Positions 31,217-41,724 of a stretch of 64,000 bases of DNA are shown here, piece by piece. Location: positions 124,001-188,000 of the forward strand of contig NZ_JACBFQ010000004.1 in assembly GCF_021401125.1 (NCBI RefSeq). The letters are read 5' to 3'. The number at the start of each line of letters is the position of its first letter. Within the stretch, counting starts at the first letter, position 1. A model generated the notes under the pieces. The model had not been told where the DNA came from. It did no database searches and saw only the letters and a list, made by a program, of their open reading frames with translations. This stretch comes from Xanthobacter sp. NM-59 (GTDB lineage Bacteria > Pseudomonadota > Alphaproteobacteria > Rhizobiales > Xanthobacteraceae). The position numbers were made by a program, and so were the translations under genes.

Positions 31217-31498
31217 TCAGTTCCCGAAACCACCGAAGGGAGATGGCGCGGGCTGCTGCGCGGGCACGGGCATGCACATGGCGCGCACGCGCTGGCCGGG
31301 GGCCGGCGCCGGCCAGGCGCCGTTGGGCCGCGTGCTGGCACGCAGGCAGGCGCGCTCGGTGTCGTAATAGGCCACCAGCTTCTGCGTATCGATGGTGGCC
31401 AAATAGCTTGCGCCCACCTGCACCGGCCAATCGGGAGCCGGCGTGAACTGCTCGATGCGGGTGGTCGTGGAGATGACGAGGATCAGTGCGTAGAGCAT
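31217..31498 (-). CDS. Small exported or membrane-anchored protein, antisense in the GTA cluster
   Basis: 93-aa protein with a short hydrophobic start (MLYALILVISTTT) and a Pro/Gly-rich end (PAQQPAPSPFGGFGN). It contains two Cys. No family is recognised. It fills the 411-base gap between terL and portal on the opposite strand, like all other inserted genes of this cluster. The reality of the gene is only moderately supported. Confidence 0.45.
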   Translation of the reverse strand: MLYALILVISTTTRIEQFTPAPDWPVQVGASYLATIDTQKLVAYYDTERACLRASTRPNGAWPAPAPGQRVRAMCMPVPAQQPAPSPFGGFGN

Positions 31499-31600
31499 GC
31501 GCCCTCCAGATGCCGCTACGCGATGATCCTACGCTTTTTCCCGGAGGCCGGAAACCGGCTGTCCGCGGCGTTCAGAGCTTCTTTTCTGCTGGAGCCCCTC

Positions 31601-32767
31601 ATGCTTGGTTCGCTTCTCGCCCCCTTCCGCCCAAAATCCGCGCCGCCCGAGGCGAAGGCGAGCCGCACGGCGGCCCTTGTGGCGCTGCTCACCACCGGCC
31701 GGCCCACCTGGAGCCGGCACGATTACGCCTCCCTTGCCCGCGACGGATTCGCCCGCAACGCCATCGCCTACCGGGCGGTGCGGATGATCGGGGAGGCGGC
31801 GGCCTCCGTGCCGCTGGTGCTGATGGACGGCCCGCGCGAGCTGGACACCCACCCAATGCTGGACCTTCTGGCCCGGCCCAATCCGCGCCTCACCGGCTCC
31901 AGCTTCATGGAGGCGCTGATCAGCCATCTCATGGTGGCGGGCAATGCTTATGTGGAGGCGGTGGCGGTGGAAGGCCGCGTGCGCGAGCTGCATGTGCTGC
32001 GGCCCGATCGCATGCGCGTGGTGCCGGGTCCGGATGGCTGGCCGGAGGCCTATGACTACACCTTGTGCGGGCGCACCCTGCGCATTTCCCAGGCGAGCGT
32101 GGTGGAAGGGGGCGATGTGCCGGCCATCCTCCACCTCACCGCCTTCAATCCGCTGGACGACCATTACGGCTTTCCGCCTCTGGAGGCGGCCTCGCAGGCC
32201 CTCGACCTGCACAATTCCGCCAGCAATTGGAACAAGGCGCTGATCGACAATGCGGCCCGGCCTTCCGGCGCGCTGGTTTATGGCGGCACGGGGGCGCTGA
32301 GCGATGAGCAGTTCGAGCGCCTGAAGGGCGAGCTGGAAGCGTCCTTTCAGGGCGCCACCAACGCCGGCCGGCCGCTGCTGCTGGAAGGCGGGCTGGACTG
32401 GCGCCCCCTCTCCCTCTCGCCCAAGGACATGGATTTCGAGGCCGCGCGCAACGCCGCCGCGCGGGAAATCGCGCTGGCGGTGGGCGTGCCGCCCATGCTG
32501 CTGGGCATTCCCGGCGACAACACCTACGCCAACTACGCCGAAGCCAACCGCGCCTTGTGGCGCCAGAGCGTGGTGCCGCTGGTGAAGCGCACCGCCGAAA
32601 GCCTCTCCACTTGGCTCACCCCCGCCTATGAAGGCGCCCTGCGCCTCGTCCCCGACCTCGACCAGATCGAAGCCCTCGCCAGCGAACGCGCCGACCTGTG
32701 GACCCGCGTGGGCGCCGCAGACTTCCTGACCGACGAGGAGAAGCGGGCGGCGGTGGGGTATGGGTGA
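31601..32767 (+). CDS. HK97-family portal protein (GTA g3)
   Basis: 388-aa portal that forms the dodecameric DNA gate at one capsid vertex. Characteristic segments: NAIAYRAVRMIGEAAASVPL, MVAGNAYVEAVAVEG, YGFPPLEAASQALDLHNSASNWN, and VGVPPMLLGIPGDNTYANYAEANRALWRQ. ATG at 31601 is preceded by GGAG eight bases upstream. The frame open upstream has no portal-like sequence. Confidence 0.93.
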   Translation: MLGSLLAPFRPKSAPPEAKASRTAALVALLTTGRPTWSRHDYASLARDGFARNAIAYRAVRMIGEAAASVPLVLMDGPRELDTHPMLDLLARPNPRLTGSSFMEALISHLMVAGNAYVEAVAVEGRVRELHVLRPDRMRVVPGPDGWPEAYDYTLCGRTLRISQASVVEGGDVPAILHLTAFNPLDDHYGFPPLEAASQALDLHNSASNWNKALIDNAARPSGALVYGGTGALSDEQFERLKGELEASFQGATNAGRPLLLEGGLDWRPLSLSPKDMDFEAARNAAAREIALAVGVPPMLLGIPGDNTYANYAEANRALWRQSVVPLVKRTAESLSTWLTPAYEGALRLVPDLDQIEALASERADLWTRVGAADFLTDEEKRAAVGYG

Positions 32768-32875
32768 GATTTGAACTCGAAAAGCCTCCGGAGTTCACCT
32801 ATTCGGTCCGCGTCATCCTTCGAGCTTGTGCTCCTTACTTGGGGGACGCCTTCGTGATGATGGGCAGTTGCAAGT

Positions 32876-33997
32876 TTACTGTCGTGCAGCAACTTCTGCA
32901 TTCATCCGATCAATCAATGTTTTGATGACCAGCACCGGTTGGGGTCCGATGCCTTGAAATCCTAAGCGTTCGCAGCTTCGTATTGCGCATTGACCACATT
33001 CAATCCACAGTCCATCCGTTTCTACGGTAATTTGCGTCGGAATGGGCGCCGCTGCCGCATGGGCCATTATTTCCTCAAGCTCAATATCAGTCAATCGATG
33101 CTCGATTGGAGTATAATTATCAATTAATAATCCACCGAGCGCTTCCACTCTCTCTTCCAAAGCCGCTTTAAATTCCGCTAATATCGTGTCACGCACAGCT
33201 TGTGTTAAAGGATTTGAAAAACGCCAATTGAGCGGATTGTCATTTTCCAGAGGGGAATAGATATACCCTACACCAGCGTCGAGAATGAGCACCCCTAGGA
33301 CCGCGACGCCACGGTATTTTGTATCTTGGATGTTGAATAACCATTGGGTCATGCCGGAACAGCGGTCTGTCAGCTGCTGCTGTGTCAGGCCGCCGGGGAA
33401 GGAAATCACGTCCCACGTTGCTGAGCTTGCTGATGAATTGTAGCAGTGCCCATAGGGCGAGCAGGTGGCCATGATGGGGAGGCCTCCTACTCCATCCGTA
33501 ATCCTTGTGCCGTCGAATAGGCGCCGAAACGCTGTCCAAAACTGGATCTCTTGCTCGAATTCATGGGAGCGGCATCCCAATGGAACTTCGCCTGCTTTCA
33601 TCAGGAGGGTTGGCAAAAGGTTTCGCTGGCCAATGCAACTATACGGTAAATCATTAGAGTTGCGACCATCCCAAATGCGTTTCAGTGTCGGCTCGCCACT
33701 GGAATGGCTGACAAGGAGGAATTCTATCTGGCCTTCATGATACGCAGTCTCTTCCGTTAACATCTGTTCAATTTCGGCTATGGTTTCTCCAGCCAAGTGG
33801 AGTCGTCTGGCTGTGCGAATGGCGTCGAGCGCTTGGTTTGCCAAGCCGGCGAACGCGACTGTCAAGGTGGGAGACAATACGACGATCTTTAGTTGGCCAG
33901 GGATCGAACTATGTCGGGTCCCTTGCAGGTCTGAAATCATCGTGTCTCCGACCATAATGATCCTTTTTCCAAAACGCTTCGCCGCAACGAATGTCAT
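32876..33997 (-). CDS. Predicted Ntn-hydrolase (proteasome/HslV-like), low-GC insertion
   Basis: 373-aa protein not assigned to a named family, but its first ~115 residues read like an HslV/proteasome subunit. After Met removal the chain begins with Thr1 (TFVAAKRFGKRIIMVGD), Asp falls at position 17 as in HslV, and a Lys follows in GQLKIVVL where Lys33 is expected (three residues later). Then come TVAFAGLANQALDAIRTARR (HslV has a GFAGGTADAF-type segment), a helix, and IEFLLVSHSSGEPTLKRIWDG. The C-terminal 170 residues are unrecognised and carry several Cys. Base composition is unlike the neighbours: the 60-base lines at 33,121 and 33,181 are 45% and 42% G+C. It lies antisense between portal and prohead protease genes. 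Function unknown; an orphan peptidase or amidase is inference. Confidence 0.55.
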   Translation of the reverse strand: MTFVAAKRFGKRIIMVGDTMISDLQGTRHSSIPGQLKIVVLSPTLTVAFAGLANQALDAIRTARRLHLAGETIAEIEQMLTEETAYHEGQIEFLLVSHSSGEPTLKRIWDGRNSNDLPYSCIGQRNLLPTLLMKAGEVPLGCRSHEFEQEIQFWTAFRRLFDGTRITDGVGGLPIMATCSPYGHCYNSSASSATWDVISFPGGLTQQQLTDRCSGMTQWLFNIQDTKYRGVAVLGVLILDAGVGYIYSPLENDNPLNWRFSNPLTQAVRDTILAEFKAALEERVEALGGLLIDNYTPIEHRLTDIELEEIMAHAAAAPIPTQITVETDGLWIECGQCAIRSCERLGFQGIGPQPVLVIKTLIDRMNAEVAARQ

Positions 33998-34358
33998 GGA
34001 GCAGTCCTATTCTGTTTCCGCTGCGAGGTTCCGTTGACCCAATGGATTGAGTATACCTTATGGCATCTCTTTTCGTCGTCGCGGATGTTGTGGTGGCGGA
34101 GACGCCAGAGATGGTGCCCTATGGCTTATCTCCAAAGGAGAAAATTCGTTCCCCTCAGTTAACGAGAGGTTGTGGCAACGCGCCAACGACCGCCGCGCTA
34201 TGTCCGCGATTTAGATCATTGTTTCGAGGCGCCTTACGGACATGGAGTGCCGTCAATATGGGCAAATGACGGAGGTATATCGATCCTCATCCCCATGTGA
34301 GGTGTGGCTGGTGAGAAATAGCCCGCGGTATTCGCTGCGCACTACAGCCACACGGCCC
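33998..34358. other. Low-GC gene-free stretch
   Basis: About 360 bases with lower GC than the surroundings and no supported gene; the open frames are short and unlike proteins. It probably carries the promoter of the minus-strand Ntn-hydrolase-like gene and may mark one border of the inserted segment. Confidence 0.5.
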
Positions 34359-34664
34359 TCACACCACCGCCAGCCGCTCCGCCAGTTCGCTCACATCGTC
34401 CCAGCTCAGGTGATGGGGCCCCTTGGGGGTTTCTACGGTGACGCCGGTTTGCGTTACGGCGGCGGAGAATTCGGTGTCGGTACCGATGGGGCTGAGATAG
34501 ATGAAGTCCGTGCGGCGCCAGTCAAAGGCGACGGCGGTGAAGGCGCGGGACAGGGTTCGGCCCTCTTCCAGGGTCAGGTCGAAATAGACATCGTCGCTCA
34601 GCATCATGCGCAGCATCTCGCCGAGCATTCGATGGGGCACGCGTTTGACGAGGGGATAGGTCAT
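34359..34664 (-). CDS. Hypothetical protein, 101 aa
   Basis: 101-aa soluble protein (starts MTYPLVKRVPHRMLGEMLRM, ends SWDDVSELAERLAVV) with a plausible mixed alpha/beta composition and no signal peptide or membrane helix. No family is recognised. Its GC and codon use are like the host, unlike the adjacent Ntn-hydrolase-like gene. It is antisense to the GTA genes. Confidence 0.6.
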   Translation of the reverse strand: MTYPLVKRVPHRMLGEMLRMMLSDDVYFDLTLEEGRTLSRAFTAVAFDWRRTDFIYLSPIGTDTEFSAAVTQTGVTVETPKGPHHLSWDDVSELAERLAVV

Positions 34665-34998: not shown

Positions 34999-35463
34999 CT
35001 AGATCGCGCCGACGTCTTCGGCCTTCGCGATGAATTCCACGCGGTCGGCCTGGTCGAGTTCTTCCATGGTCAGGTCGAACACGAAGCGGTTCGCGTACCA
35101 GAAATTGGCATAGGGTATGAACATGCCGCTTGAAGCGCGGCTGGCCACTTGCCGCTCGCCCGCGAACAGCACGATTTCAAAGATGCCGCCGCCGGCGAGC
35201 ATAGTCGTATTGTCGCCGAACACCTCGAACTGCACGAACACCTTGGCGGAGGGAGCGCCGCCTTCCACCGTCTTGATGGCGATGACGCGAAGATCCTGGT
35301 AGCGCCGGCCGATCTTGCCGTCAGCCAGAAGCTGGTCATGCTCGTGCACGCGCCCCTTTTTAACCGCCGTGGTCTCGACCATGGGCACGCCCAGATCGGC
35401 CAATCCGGTGGGCTTTGCGGGGGCCAGTGTCACCGTGGCGCGGGTTTCCTGCAATGCGGGCAA
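34999..35463 (-). CDS. Hypothetical protein, about 154 aa, TTG start
   Basis: A soluble protein ending MEELDQADRVEFIAKAEDVGAI. The conserved-looking region starts near LPALQETRATVTLAPAKPTG. AAGGAG lies six bases before TTG at 35463, which I take as the start; the longer frame to 35,589 reads through Arg-rich sequence. It contains FVQFEVFGDNTTMLAGGGIFEIVLF, a beta-rich segment. Function unknown. Confidence 0.6.
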   Translation of the reverse strand: MPALQETRATVTLAPAKPTGLADLGVPMVETTAVKKGRVHEHDQLLADGKIGRRYQDLRVIAIKTVEGGAPSAKVFVQFEVFGDNTTMLAGGGIFEIVLFAGERQVASRASSGMFIPYANFWYANRFVFDLTMEELDQADRVEFIAKAEDVGAI

Positions 35464-35615
35464 GATGAGCTCCTTGTCGGATTCGACGTTGCAAACCCGA
35501 CGAAACCGCGGGTCCAGACGGCGGCAGGCATATTGCGCGCCAGATCCAACGCCCCGCCGCTCTCGCCCCGGGGGGCGGGACGCGACCAACCGCCGTGCTG
35601 AAGGCTTGAGGCCCG

Positions 35616-35804
35616 ATGGATACCGTCATCCGCACCTTCGCCGAGCGGGGCGATCTCGCGCATCTGGCGCTGCTGGTGTGGGCGTTGTCGGCCTCGCTCG
35701 CCTTCTGGCGGGTGCTCTCCGAGCTCGCCCGCGCCACGCGCCGGTTCGATGATTTCGTGCGGGAGCTCGCCCGCTTCAATGCCCGCCACAACGGCAAAGG
35801 CTGA
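35616..35804 (+). CDS. Small membrane protein (GTA g3.5 position)
   Basis: 62-aa protein with one predicted helix (LALLVWALSASLAFWRVL) followed by a basic/amphipathic tail. A small gene between portal and protease is a regular feature of GTA clusters. Function unknown. Confidence 0.6.
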   Translation: MDTVIRTFAERGDLAHLALLVWALSASLAFWRVLSELARATRRFDDFVRELARFNARHNGKG

Positions 35805-39370: not shown

Positions 39371-40333
39371 TCAGTTCGGCAGCACGATGCAGGGGCCGCC
39401 GGCCTTGCGCAGGCGGGTGCACAGGGCGTTGGCTTCCGACCGCGTCTGGGCCGGCAGGCGCACGCGATAGAAGGTGCGCGCACCGCGGCCCGCCATGCGG
39501 GTGGCGACGATCACCGGCACCGCATCGCCGAAAACCGATTGATATTTGCCCGCCGCGCGCTGGAACGATGACAGAGCCAGATCCTTGGAGAAGTTTCCGG
39601 AGATCTGCACGCCCCAGGGTGCGAAGAGGGCATTGGGCCCGGCATCGGGCGCGGGCGTCCCCTGGCGCAGGCTGGCGAGGGTGACGAGGCAGGTCGCGTC
39701 CGCTTCTTCGGGCGGGACATCCCCGCTCCGTTTCAGGGCGGCCCAGTCGTCAGCGGTGCGGCCGGTGATGAGGCGCACATACGCACGGGTCTCGCGGGGC
39801 AGGCCGCCGCCGGCCAGGAAGGCTGACACGCGGCCCGGCCCCCCATTATAGGCCGCCGCCGCAAGGCCGAGATTGCCGAACTGCCGCCGCAGATCGGCCA
39901 GCAGCGCCGCCGAGGCGGGAATGGCCTCTTCCGGGTCGAACGGGTTGGAGAGGCCGCGCTCCCGCGCCGTGCCCGGCATGAACTGGGCGATGCCCTGGGC
40001 GCCCGCGCGGCTCACCACATGGGGGCGAAACGAGCTTTCACGCCAGATCAGCCGCGTGAGGAAGGTGGCCGGGAGGCCGCTCCGCGCCGCCGCGCCGTCG
40101 ATCAGGCGGCACAGCGCGCCATCGATGGTTTCGCCTTTGGCCGTGTCGCCGCTGCCGGGAGATCCGGAGGGCGGGGGTGCTGTCATGGGCGGCTGGGGAG
40201 CATCATTCGCGAGGCCGTCGACCGCTTGCGCCTCGGCCGGCGCGGGAGTGCCCGCCAGCGCGCCGAGCAGCAGGAGGCCGGCGGCAATACCGCGGCGCGC
40301 CGTCCGCATGGGAAGGGGCGACGCCGCGGCCAT
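39371..40333 (-). CDS. Lytic murein transglycosylase with C-terminal SPOR-like domain
   Basis: 320-aa exported protein. After a signal peptide (GIAAGLLLLGALAGTPAPAEA) and a Pro-rich linker comes an SLT domain: FLTRLIWRESSFRPHVVSRAGA (catalytic Glu), GIAQFMPGTARERGL and LAAAAYNGGPGRVSAFL. The end (GVQISGNFSKDLALSSFQRA through RVRLPAQTRSEANALCTRL) resembles a SPOR peptidoglycan-binding repeat. ATG at 40333 or 40309 could start it. It is antisense in the GTA cluster, three bases downstream of the protease gene; it may be a host cell-wall enzyme or a release/entry factor. Confidence 0.88.
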   Translation of the reverse strand: MAAASPLPMRTARRGIAAGLLLLGALAGTPAPAEAQAVDGLANDAPQPPMTAPPPSGSPGSGDTAKGETIDGALCRLIDGAAARSGLPATFLTRLIWRESSFRPHVVSRAGAQGIAQFMPGTARERGLSNPFDPEEAIPASAALLADLRRQFGNLGLAAAAYNGGPGRVSAFLAGGGLPRETRAYVRLITGRTADDWAALKRSGDVPPEEADATCLVTLASLRQGTPAPDAGPNALFAPWGVQISGNFSKDLALSSFQRAAGKYQSVFGDAVPVIVATRMAGRGARTFYRVRLPAQTRSEANALCTRLRKAGGPCIVLPN

Positions 40334-40335
40334 GG

Positions 40336-41094
40336 TCAGCGGCCGATGGGGCTGCCGAGGGCAGCGGCGGTGGAGGTGATCCAATCGCGGTGGATGGACA
40401 CCAGCGTCACGCCGGTGACGCCGCCGCAGCCGCGTGTGCCGCCGGGTCCCGTGGCCCAGCCGATAACGCCGGCCACCGTCCCGTCTTGGAAGGCCGGGCC
40501 GCCGGAATCGCCGGTGCAGGCGCCGGCCGCGCCCTGGCCCGCTGAAAGGCGCACCATGATGCCCCCGGTGGTGCCAATGGAAGGCAGGTTCACCGTGCGC
40601 AGGGTGCCGGCGGTCTTGGTGGCGCCGTCCGCCGTCACACCGAACCCGGCGAGGGTGAAGGGCGTGCCCTTGGCCGGCAGCCCCGTGGCGGCGGTGAGCG
40701 CCACCGGGTGAAAGCGCGGTGGCAGCGGCGATGCCAGCTTGACGAGGGCGAGGTCGGGTGTGGGCCTGCGGGTGCGGAACTGGTCCGCGTTGAAGCGCGG
40801 ATGCACCTCGACCCGCGCCGCCGGGATCAGCCGGGGCGGACCCTCACCCACGATGGCCACCGCATAGTCCGCCTGGGGCTCCACGCAGTGAGCGGCGGTC
40901 AGCAGCAGGTCCGGCGCCAGGACGGTGCCGGTGCAGACCGCGCCGCGGGTGGAAACCACCATGGCCGCGTGCGCCTCCAGGGTGGGGTCGGCCGGCGCGC
41001 CGCCCACCATGGCCCGCGCGGGAAGCGCGGCGCCGATGGTGGCCGCGAGGAGGACGACGGCGCAGGACGCGCGCAGGGGAGCAAAGCCGATCAT
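40336..41094 (-). CDS. Trypsin-like serine protease, exported
   Basis: 252-aa S1 family protease starting at ATG 41094 with a signal peptide ending ALPARA. The triad is visible: LLTAAHCVEP (His), TPDLALVKLASPL (Asp) and ACTGDSGGPAFQDG (Ser). The mature N-terminus MVGGAPADP resembles the activated IVGG-type start. It precedes and is probably co-transcribed with the lytic transglycosylase. Both act outside the cytoplasm. Confidence 0.9.
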   Translation of the reverse strand: MIGFAPLRASCAVVLLAATIGAALPARAMVGGAPADPTLEAHAAMVVSTRGAVCTGTVLAPDLLLTAAHCVEPQADYAVAIVGEGPPRLIPAARVEVHPRFNADQFRTRRPTPDLALVKLASPLPPRFHPVALTAATGLPAKGTPFTLAGFGVTADGATKTAGTLRTVNLPSIGTTGGIMVRLSAGQGAAGACTGDSGGPAFQDGTVAGVIGWATGPGGTRGCGGVTGVTLVSIHRDWITSTAAALGSPIGR

Positions 41095-41166
41095 GGGCGC
41101 GTTCTGCCGCTCCGGCTCCCCACCGTCAATGGCGCCGCGCAGGTTCAATCTCAATGGAGACCGAGC

Positions 41167-41724
41167 ATGGCAGAACTTCTCGCCGGCCCCGCCGCCGAGC
41201 CGCTGACCCGCGCCGAGGCGAAATCCTTCCTGCGCATCGACCATGACGACGAGGATGCGCTGGTCGATGCCCTCATCGTCGCCGCCCGGCGCATGGTGGA
41301 GGCGGCCACGGGCCGCGTGCTGCTGGAGCAGACCTGGTGCTTTGGCCGTGAGGCCTGGCCGCTCAGCGGCGTCATTCCGGCCCCCGTGGCCCCGGTGCGC
41401 ACGATCGTCTCCGCAATCGTGTCCCTGGCCGATGGGCACACGGTGGAGGTGCCCGAAGGGGTGCTCAGCCTGAAGGCGGATCGCGCGCCCGCGCTCATCC
41501 ATGTGGATCTCGCCCGCGCGCCGCAGCCGGGAGCGGGCGGCATCGCGATCACCATCACCGCCGGCTATGGCGCGACCGCCGCCGCCGTGCCGGCCGACCT
41601 GATGCAGGCGGTGCGGCTGGTGATGGCGCATTTCTATGAGTTCCGCGACGGCTCGGGCGACGCCTTGTCACTGCCCGACACCGTCGGCGCGCTGCTGGCG
41701 CCCTACCGCTTGGTGCGGCTGTGA
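41167..41724 (+). CDS. Head-tail connector protein (GTA g6)
   Basis: 185-aa protein of the phage gp6/HK97 connector type: LTRAEAKSFLRIDHDDEDALVDALIVAARRMVEA is the family N-terminus, followed by WPLSGVIPAPVAPVRTI and a C-terminal helix. It bridges portal and tail. ATG at 41167. Overlaps the next gene's GTG by four bases. Confidence 0.88.
   Translation: MAELLAGPAAEPLTRAEAKSFLRIDHDDEDALVDALIVAARRMVEAATGRVLLEQTWCFGREAWPLSGVIPAPVAPVRTIVSAIVSLADGHTVEVPEGVLSLKADRAPALIHVDLARAPQPGAGGIAITITAGYGATAAAVPADLMQAVRLVMAHFYEFRDGSGDALSLPDTVGALLAPYRLVRL

Follow-up and report, generated by a model that had tools for sequence, protein, structure and literature searches.

A probable proteasome-like Ntn-hydrolase gene in a variable slot of a GTA cluster

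Proteasome-like proteins are usually viewed as proteases that form rings and work together with unfoldases. Fuchs, Alva and Lupas (2021; PMC8665760) described 22 new proteasome-like homologues, many of them rare and, in the excerpts of that paper drawn on here, without AAA+ partners. Some of these homologues are phage-borne (PPH and AAH), and more were expected. The same excerpts name the proteasome catalytic residues as T1, D17, K33 and G47, and describe connectase as a monomeric archaeal protein ligase that has the same catalytic triad and lacks H1 and H2. Here we analyze a gene within a window of 64,000 nucleotides, meaning the whole stretch of DNA under study, whose product (P0001) is, on the evidence of its sequence and relatives, probably a proteasome-like Ntn-hydrolase. 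With a probability of roughly 0.7, we read it as a stand-alone proteasome-like hydrolase belonging to a rare group outside the family libraries that we searched, that is, a peptidase without an unfoldase whose location in a GTA cluster is due to chance. The first-pass annotation of this DNA had taken an orphan Ntn-hydrolase without HslU, carried inside a GTA cluster, to be apparently undescribed as a system. Solo proteasome homologues are already a described kind in the excerpts of PMC8665760; the P0001 family itself is not named in the libraries searched.

Compared with HslV (ClpQ) of HslVU, the P0001 family shares Thr1, Asp17, Lys33 and the AG turn in register over 118 columns, but is roughly twice as long, has a long C-terminal half and a wider spacing before the lysine, has no recognized adjacent HslU, and matches neither PF00227 nor phrog_1040. 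The HslV of the same genome has residues ahead of Thr1, whereas the P0001 family has none. With Anbu, the family shares a Met-Thr start without a propeptide, D17 and K33, and helix H5 of Anbu, as the excerpts of PMC8665760 present it, may be likened to a C-terminal helix (residues 266-291) in our low-confidence model of P0001. However, profile similarity to Anbu alone did not rise above that of shuffles, and the genome has a separate Anbu. PPH, AAH and the other solo homologues, which were compared with the family only by their description in the excerpts of PMC8665760, resemble it in being rare, solo, without an AAA+ partner and equipped with T1/D17/K33/G47. Some of them occur in phages or have spread horizontally. 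In contrast to PPH, which has ~140 aa (PMC8665760, excerpts), the family proteins are 284-414 aa long, and unlike PPH and AAH the family had no relative in the phage collection, which was searched with three of its six proteins. Connectase, also compared by its description in those excerpts only, is like P0001 a solo proteasome-like protein with an N-terminal Thr.

The gene, its relatives and their surroundings

The open reading frame proposed in the first-pass annotation was confirmed as an ATG-initiated frame on the minus strand that encodes 373 aa starting with Met-Thr (Table 1). Its ATG is the sole possible start, with an in-frame stop three codons upstream and no GTG or TTG in between, and AGGA, a plausible Shine-Dalgarno sequence, lies 7 nt upstream. 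G+C content is 50.6% in the gene and 69.4% in its flanks. The sharp compositional contrast claimed earlier therefore stands, although the 45% and 42% given there describe local stretches only, the lowest 200-base window within the gene having 44.5% G+C. By codon position the gene has a G+C fraction of 0.56/0.44/0.52, as against mostly 0.8-0.9 at the third position in GTA genes. Both its codon usage and its composition are foreign to the host.

Table 1. Coordinates of the predicted hydrolase gene, its candidate active-site codons and the surrounding slot (window positions).
Feature	Position	Strand	Basis or remark
Portal gene of the GTA cluster, flanking the slot on the left	31523..32767	plus	PF04860
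Variable slot containing the P0001 gene, 1587 bases	32769..34355		each edge coincides with a stop codon, one of the portal gene and one of the 101-aa gene
P0001 gene, 373-aa predicted proteasome-like Ntn-hydrolase	32876..33997	minus	ORF, relatives, profile match to HslV and HslV+Anbu
C-terminal extension, ~83 residues	32876..33127	minus	lacking in the two closest relatives, whose ends fall near residue 290
Gly-Gly (residues 171-172)	33482..33487	minus	kept in 6/6 proteins of alignment A6
Gly50 codon (residue 51), putative equivalent of oxyanion-hole Gly47	33845..33847	minus	5/6; Asn in G1179
Lys36 codon (residue 37), putative equivalent of proteasome Lys33	33887..33889	minus	6/6; pairs with HslV Lys33 (hhalign)
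Asp17 codon (ORF residue 18)	33944..33946	minus	kept 6/6
Thr1 codon (ORF residue 2), predicted catalytic nucleophile after Met removal	33992..33994	minus	kept 6/6
101-aa gene, no recognized family, right flank of the slot	34359..34664	minus	common to the closest genome (G013)
196-aa ORF, no recognized family	34999..35589	minus	common to G013
Short GTA-type ORF, labelled gp3.5-like here	35616..35804	plus	follows the portal gene in relatives

Relatives are few. The P0001 family consists of the window protein, five related proteins (the one from genome G811 being split by a stop codon) and one fragment, from G914. Searching with the single protein, we recovered one relative, G047 (30% identity, E 7e-22), in 61 genomes other than that of the window; the 13 further genomes of the genus that were covered gave no match. 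The window's own genome alone matched among 385 genomes of the class, as it did when the G047 protein was run against 398 genomes of the phylum. A two-row profile applied to 297 genomes of the order gave nine genomes with a row at E<=0.1, with G811 at E 4e-48 and the G914 fragment at E 1e-6. Five of the nine (G880, G884, G910, G952 and G1014) were weak, at E 0.007-0.09, and were discarded as chance, the G880 locus having been inspected. None of the five gave a row at E<=0.01 with a four-row profile, for which some of them may lie outside the draw. At that threshold the four-row profile matched 4 of 397 genomes of the order, namely the window's own, G047, G811 and G914 (the fragment).

Within the taxonomic family of G914, matches came from 4 of 81 genomes: G914 itself and three with distant proteins, G1151 (414 aa), G1179 (295 aa) and G1181 (339 aa; loci L076-L078). 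These three matched at E 3e-7 to 3e-5, all from model position 1; they have the N-terminal half common to the family and a divergent C-terminal half. When the two subgroups were compared with each other, hhalign reported a probability of 98.1 and an E-value of 8.8e-14 over 246 columns. The genome draws overlap, and their counts are not additive; locus L004, obtained by scanning contigs with two short patterns, is the G047 contig region and was counted once. No relative was found in the plasmid collection with five of the six family proteins as queries, two rows for the G1181 protein (E 0.03-0.07) being judged chance, nor in viral contigs with six pattern scans.

We read the surroundings of the relatives by eye, at 6-21 kb each. 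The G047 relative adjoins an apparent thiC, that of G1151 a GIY-YIG-like ORF and housekeeping genes, that of G1179 a UvrD-like helicase and that of G1181 an ABC-F-like gene. The G811 relative (L041 9067-10359), which carries an in-frame stop, lies between a Fic/DOC gene and a tRNA-Ala ~150 bases away, which is a typical accessory-island setting. Of these gene names, those of Fic and the tRNA alone do not rest on reading by eye. At all six loci the family gene was lower in G+C than its flanks. No HslU-like or other unfoldase gene was recognized beside the family gene at any of the six loci, which implies that P0001 probably acts without dedicated ATP-driven unfolding. The earlier description of an orphan without HslU thus holds locally but not for the genome, which also encodes HslV, with an apparent HslU beside it, and an Anbu, both elsewhere. 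As a separate observation, the G914 fragment (L042 8982-9251) lies near an apparent IS66-type transposase.

Active-site residues, profile comparison and predicted structure

The identification as a proteasome/HslV-like Ntn-hydrolase, which the first-pass annotation had proposed from the sequence, was supported by the conserved residues and by an in-register profile match above shuffles. Its numbering was correct, in that counting the Thr as residue 1 places Asp17 in GKRIIMVGD and a lysine at 36. The homologues also agreed with it, as the Met-Thr start, Asp17 and the Lys were kept in all six proteins, some at only 16-18% identity. The predicted catalytic Lys falls at position 35-38 across the six, and the Met-Thr start is forced in four of them, the other two each having one GTG or TTG alternative. 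A glycine lies exactly 14 residues past the Lys in five of the six (G1179 has Asn), and the Lys36-Gly50 spacing of 14 in P0001 equals that of proteasome Lys33-Gly47. The conserved Gly-Gly at 171-172 presumably resembles the proteasome SGG turn, the Ser of which is not retained in the six-protein alignment. Other stretches common to the six proteins (L..I.DG, IG, and GG ahead of a strand) we likewise take to resemble later proteasome elements. We defined the pattern M[TS]-x15-D-x13-20-K-x9-16-[AS]G only after the family was seen, and scanned with it 889 mechanical ORFs, each 100 aa or longer, taken from the window and the loci, plus two family sequences added by hand. It occurred in one of the 889, the window gene, and in both added sequences, which we read as exceeding coincidence; the looser combination of MT and D17 was present in 8 of the 891.

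Library searches did not place the family. Scanned at E<=10, the window protein and those of G047, G1151, G1179 and G1181 did not hit PF00227; nor did the larger piece of G811 at E<=1. Pfam, PHROGs and NCBIfam yielded no meaningful match for the window protein or its relatives, and no PADLOC model matched the window protein or the G047 relative. The entry phrog_1040, 'peptidase HslV family', did not match the family, whereas the genome's own HslV matched it at 4e-22. Our own HslV and Anbu HMMs did not rank the family significantly among the 891 ORFs. Sequence matches in PDB (3on1, 4hkm, 3oc8, designed repeat proteins and a ribosomal protein) were judged chance.

For the profile-profile comparison, HslV matches in the phage collection, which seemingly came from bacterial contigs or contamination, served only as template rows. 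A four-row profile of the P0001 subgroup aligned by hhalign with HslV in the catalytic register, with 3 of 100 shuffles scoring higher. A seven-row profile made from the six family proteins, set against 100 column shuffles, scored 33.0 over 64 columns with HslV+Anbu, and none of the shuffles scored as high (maximum 21.5). With more varied HslV+Anbu templates the score was 29.7, over only 25 columns, and again 0 of 100 shuffles reached it (maximum 25.7). Against HslV alone, scores of 25.8 (116 columns) and 26.3 (118 columns) compared with null maxima of 20.2 and 21.2. Where the alignment was longer, the HslV residues Thr1, Asp17 and Lys33, and its AG turn, stood opposite their counterparts in P0001. 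For the full family against Anbu alone, the score was not above the null maximum.

Taken separately, each subgroup scored above 60 of 60 shuffles with HslV+Anbu. The subgroup of G1151, G1179 and G1181 did so with HslV alone as well, while the P0001 subgroup was exceeded there by 1 of 60 shuffles; neither rose above its 60 shuffles with Anbu alone. The positive control, HslV versus Anbu, scored only 20.6. By hhalign score, then, Anbu is no closer to HslV than the family is, and comparison of these profiles has little power. A portal profile with few rows, used as a negative control, scored 17.2. Since the hhalign probabilities were low in absolute terms (up to 27%), the profile evidence is supporting rather than conclusive.

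We built two AlphaFold (AF2) models, of P0001 and the G047 protein, from two-row alignments. Model 1 (P0001) was of poor confidence, with a pLDDT of 38.5 and a pTM of 0.41, and model 2 (pLDDT 36.3, pTM 0.29) was mostly missing the first four strands. At that pLDDT, model 1 has the order E-E-E-E-H-H-E-E, its two helices spanning 53-67 and 73-86; this is the order given for a proteasome beta subunit in the excerpts of PMC8665760. Foldseek returned no match to model 1 at E<=0.001 in PDB or BFVD. At E<=10 there were 461 PDB matches, and 19 of the best 50 were 20S/26S chains (E 0.19-0.85, TM <0.2), which weigh little because proteasome chains are abundant in PDB.

Proposed mechanism and alternative explanations

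Removal of Met before a Thr at position 2 is an established rule. In the window copy, where the ATG stands directly before the Thr codon, a propeptide is impossible, and methionine aminopeptidase would remove the Met to expose Thr1 as the nucleophile. Thr1 would attack a peptide bond with Lys36 and Asp17 as its predicted catalytic partners, the N-H of Gly50 forming an oxyanion hole that would stabilize the oxyanion, and the acyl-enzyme would then be hydrolysed or passed to an amine. With no unfoldase neighbor, the substrates may be unfolded or loose proteins, or specific partners, and the long C-terminal half, together with the extension of the window protein, could restrict access or mediate binding. 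The gene would spread as a solo, AT-rich accessory gene, and would have landed behind the GTA portal gene by chance. We infer the fold, peptidase activity, assembly state, absence of a partner, horizontal spread and biological role.

Solo, AT-rich, patchy genes often take part in conflicts with mobile elements, and P0001 perhaps has a role of this kind. It would be decidedly speculative to go further and set the family apart from the 22 published homologues as a threonine hydrolase that lacks propeptide and partner, spreads horizontally and serves, from one gene, as a weapon or guard in conflicts with mobile elements, its landing sites being GTA slots or places neighboring tRNA or toxin-type genes. 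A rare solo branch of patchy distribution, its N-terminal Thr forced, would strengthen the evidence that proteasome-like proteins diversified into partner-free enzymes as well, and P0001-type proteins, each encoded by a single gene, are open to direct assay.

Several alternatives to a stand-alone peptidase were weighed. P0001 may have the proteasome-like fold and Thr1 chemistry without being a peptidase, acting instead as a connectase-like ligase or amide transferase, or as a specific amidohydrolase. Connectase, monomeric and equipped with the same triad, offers the precedent of a ligase (PMC8665760, excerpts), and the long C-terminal part and the rarity of the family (4/397 genomes of the order) fit a specific rather than a general function. 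However, the absence of H1 and H2 that marks connectase was not seen in model 1, which at low confidence has helices in both places, and no substrate candidate was found, so that we regard this reading as unlikely. It appears quite unlikely that the protein is no Ntn-hydrolase at all but a member of an unrelated beta-rich family in which the Met-Thr/Asp/Lys pattern is a coincidence. The lack of a library match, the poor models and the low absolute hhalign probability would fit such a family, yet exactly the catalytic residues are kept in six proteins, four of the six have a forced MT start, and the profile alignment is in register beyond shuffles even when the two subgroups are taken separately. 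The ancestry might also be catalytically capable and the copy in the window genome now functionless cargo in decay. The in-frame stop in G811, the survival of only a fragment in G914, the lack of a match in 13 further genomes of the genus and the foreign codon usage point that way, but all 373 codons of the window copy are uninterrupted, it has a plausible Shine-Dalgarno sequence and every active-site residue, and its decay seems very doubtful to us.

The variable slot of the GTA cluster

The genes around the slot form a genuine RcGTA-type cluster, with family matches to terminase, portal, prohead protease, capsid, GTA-gp10, GTA_TIM and Rcc01698_C. In the closest genome, G013, whose portal is 87% identical, the corresponding slot (L033 3754-6531) comprises 2776 bases and holds a DUF817 gene and a low-G+C DUF5677 gene. 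A single 20-base match was all the similarity that we found between it and the P0001 slot, and the different occupants imply that the cargo of the slot varies from species to species. In the seven other relatives compared, just 24-645 bases separate the portal from the next GTA ORF, and the 196-aa ORF had no match in that interval. P0001 was absent from the portal-to-next-ORF stretch in all eight related genomes. No direct repeat flanks the slot. An inverted pair of 19 bases (84%; 32690-32708 and 35507-35525) lies outside the slot in coding sequence and was judged chance. A GTA cluster can thus accommodate unrelated accessory genes in a slot of variable content.

The proposal that the gene forms part of a GTA-linked system was not sustained: by eye, no GTA or phage gene was recognized at the five relatives (6-21 kb each), and the closest genome has unrelated genes in the same slot. 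A link between the P0001 gene and the GTA is not supported. Its position inside the structural cluster could still mean that it is a working GTA component, such as a second maturation protease for GTA particles. Against this, the gene is antisense, foreign in composition and missing from the GTA stretches of the eight relatives compared, its family relatives were not seen in GTA clusters, and the cluster already has an S78 prohead protease of its own, which leaves a GTA function extremely improbable. Among the matches listed in our search of the literature on GTAs and proteasome homologues, no title concerned such a gene in a GTA cluster.

The GTA cluster (29302-52572) is punctuated by several antisense ORFs, namely those at 31217-31498, 34359-34664 and 34999-35589, one for a lytic transglycosylase with a SPOR domain (39371-40384) and one for a trypsin-like protease (40336-41631). 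The DNA of the transglycosylase gene was matched at the same place in four of the eight related stretches. Between 38420 and 39100, the cluster also contains broken frames that by eye read like remnants of an IS5-type transposase.
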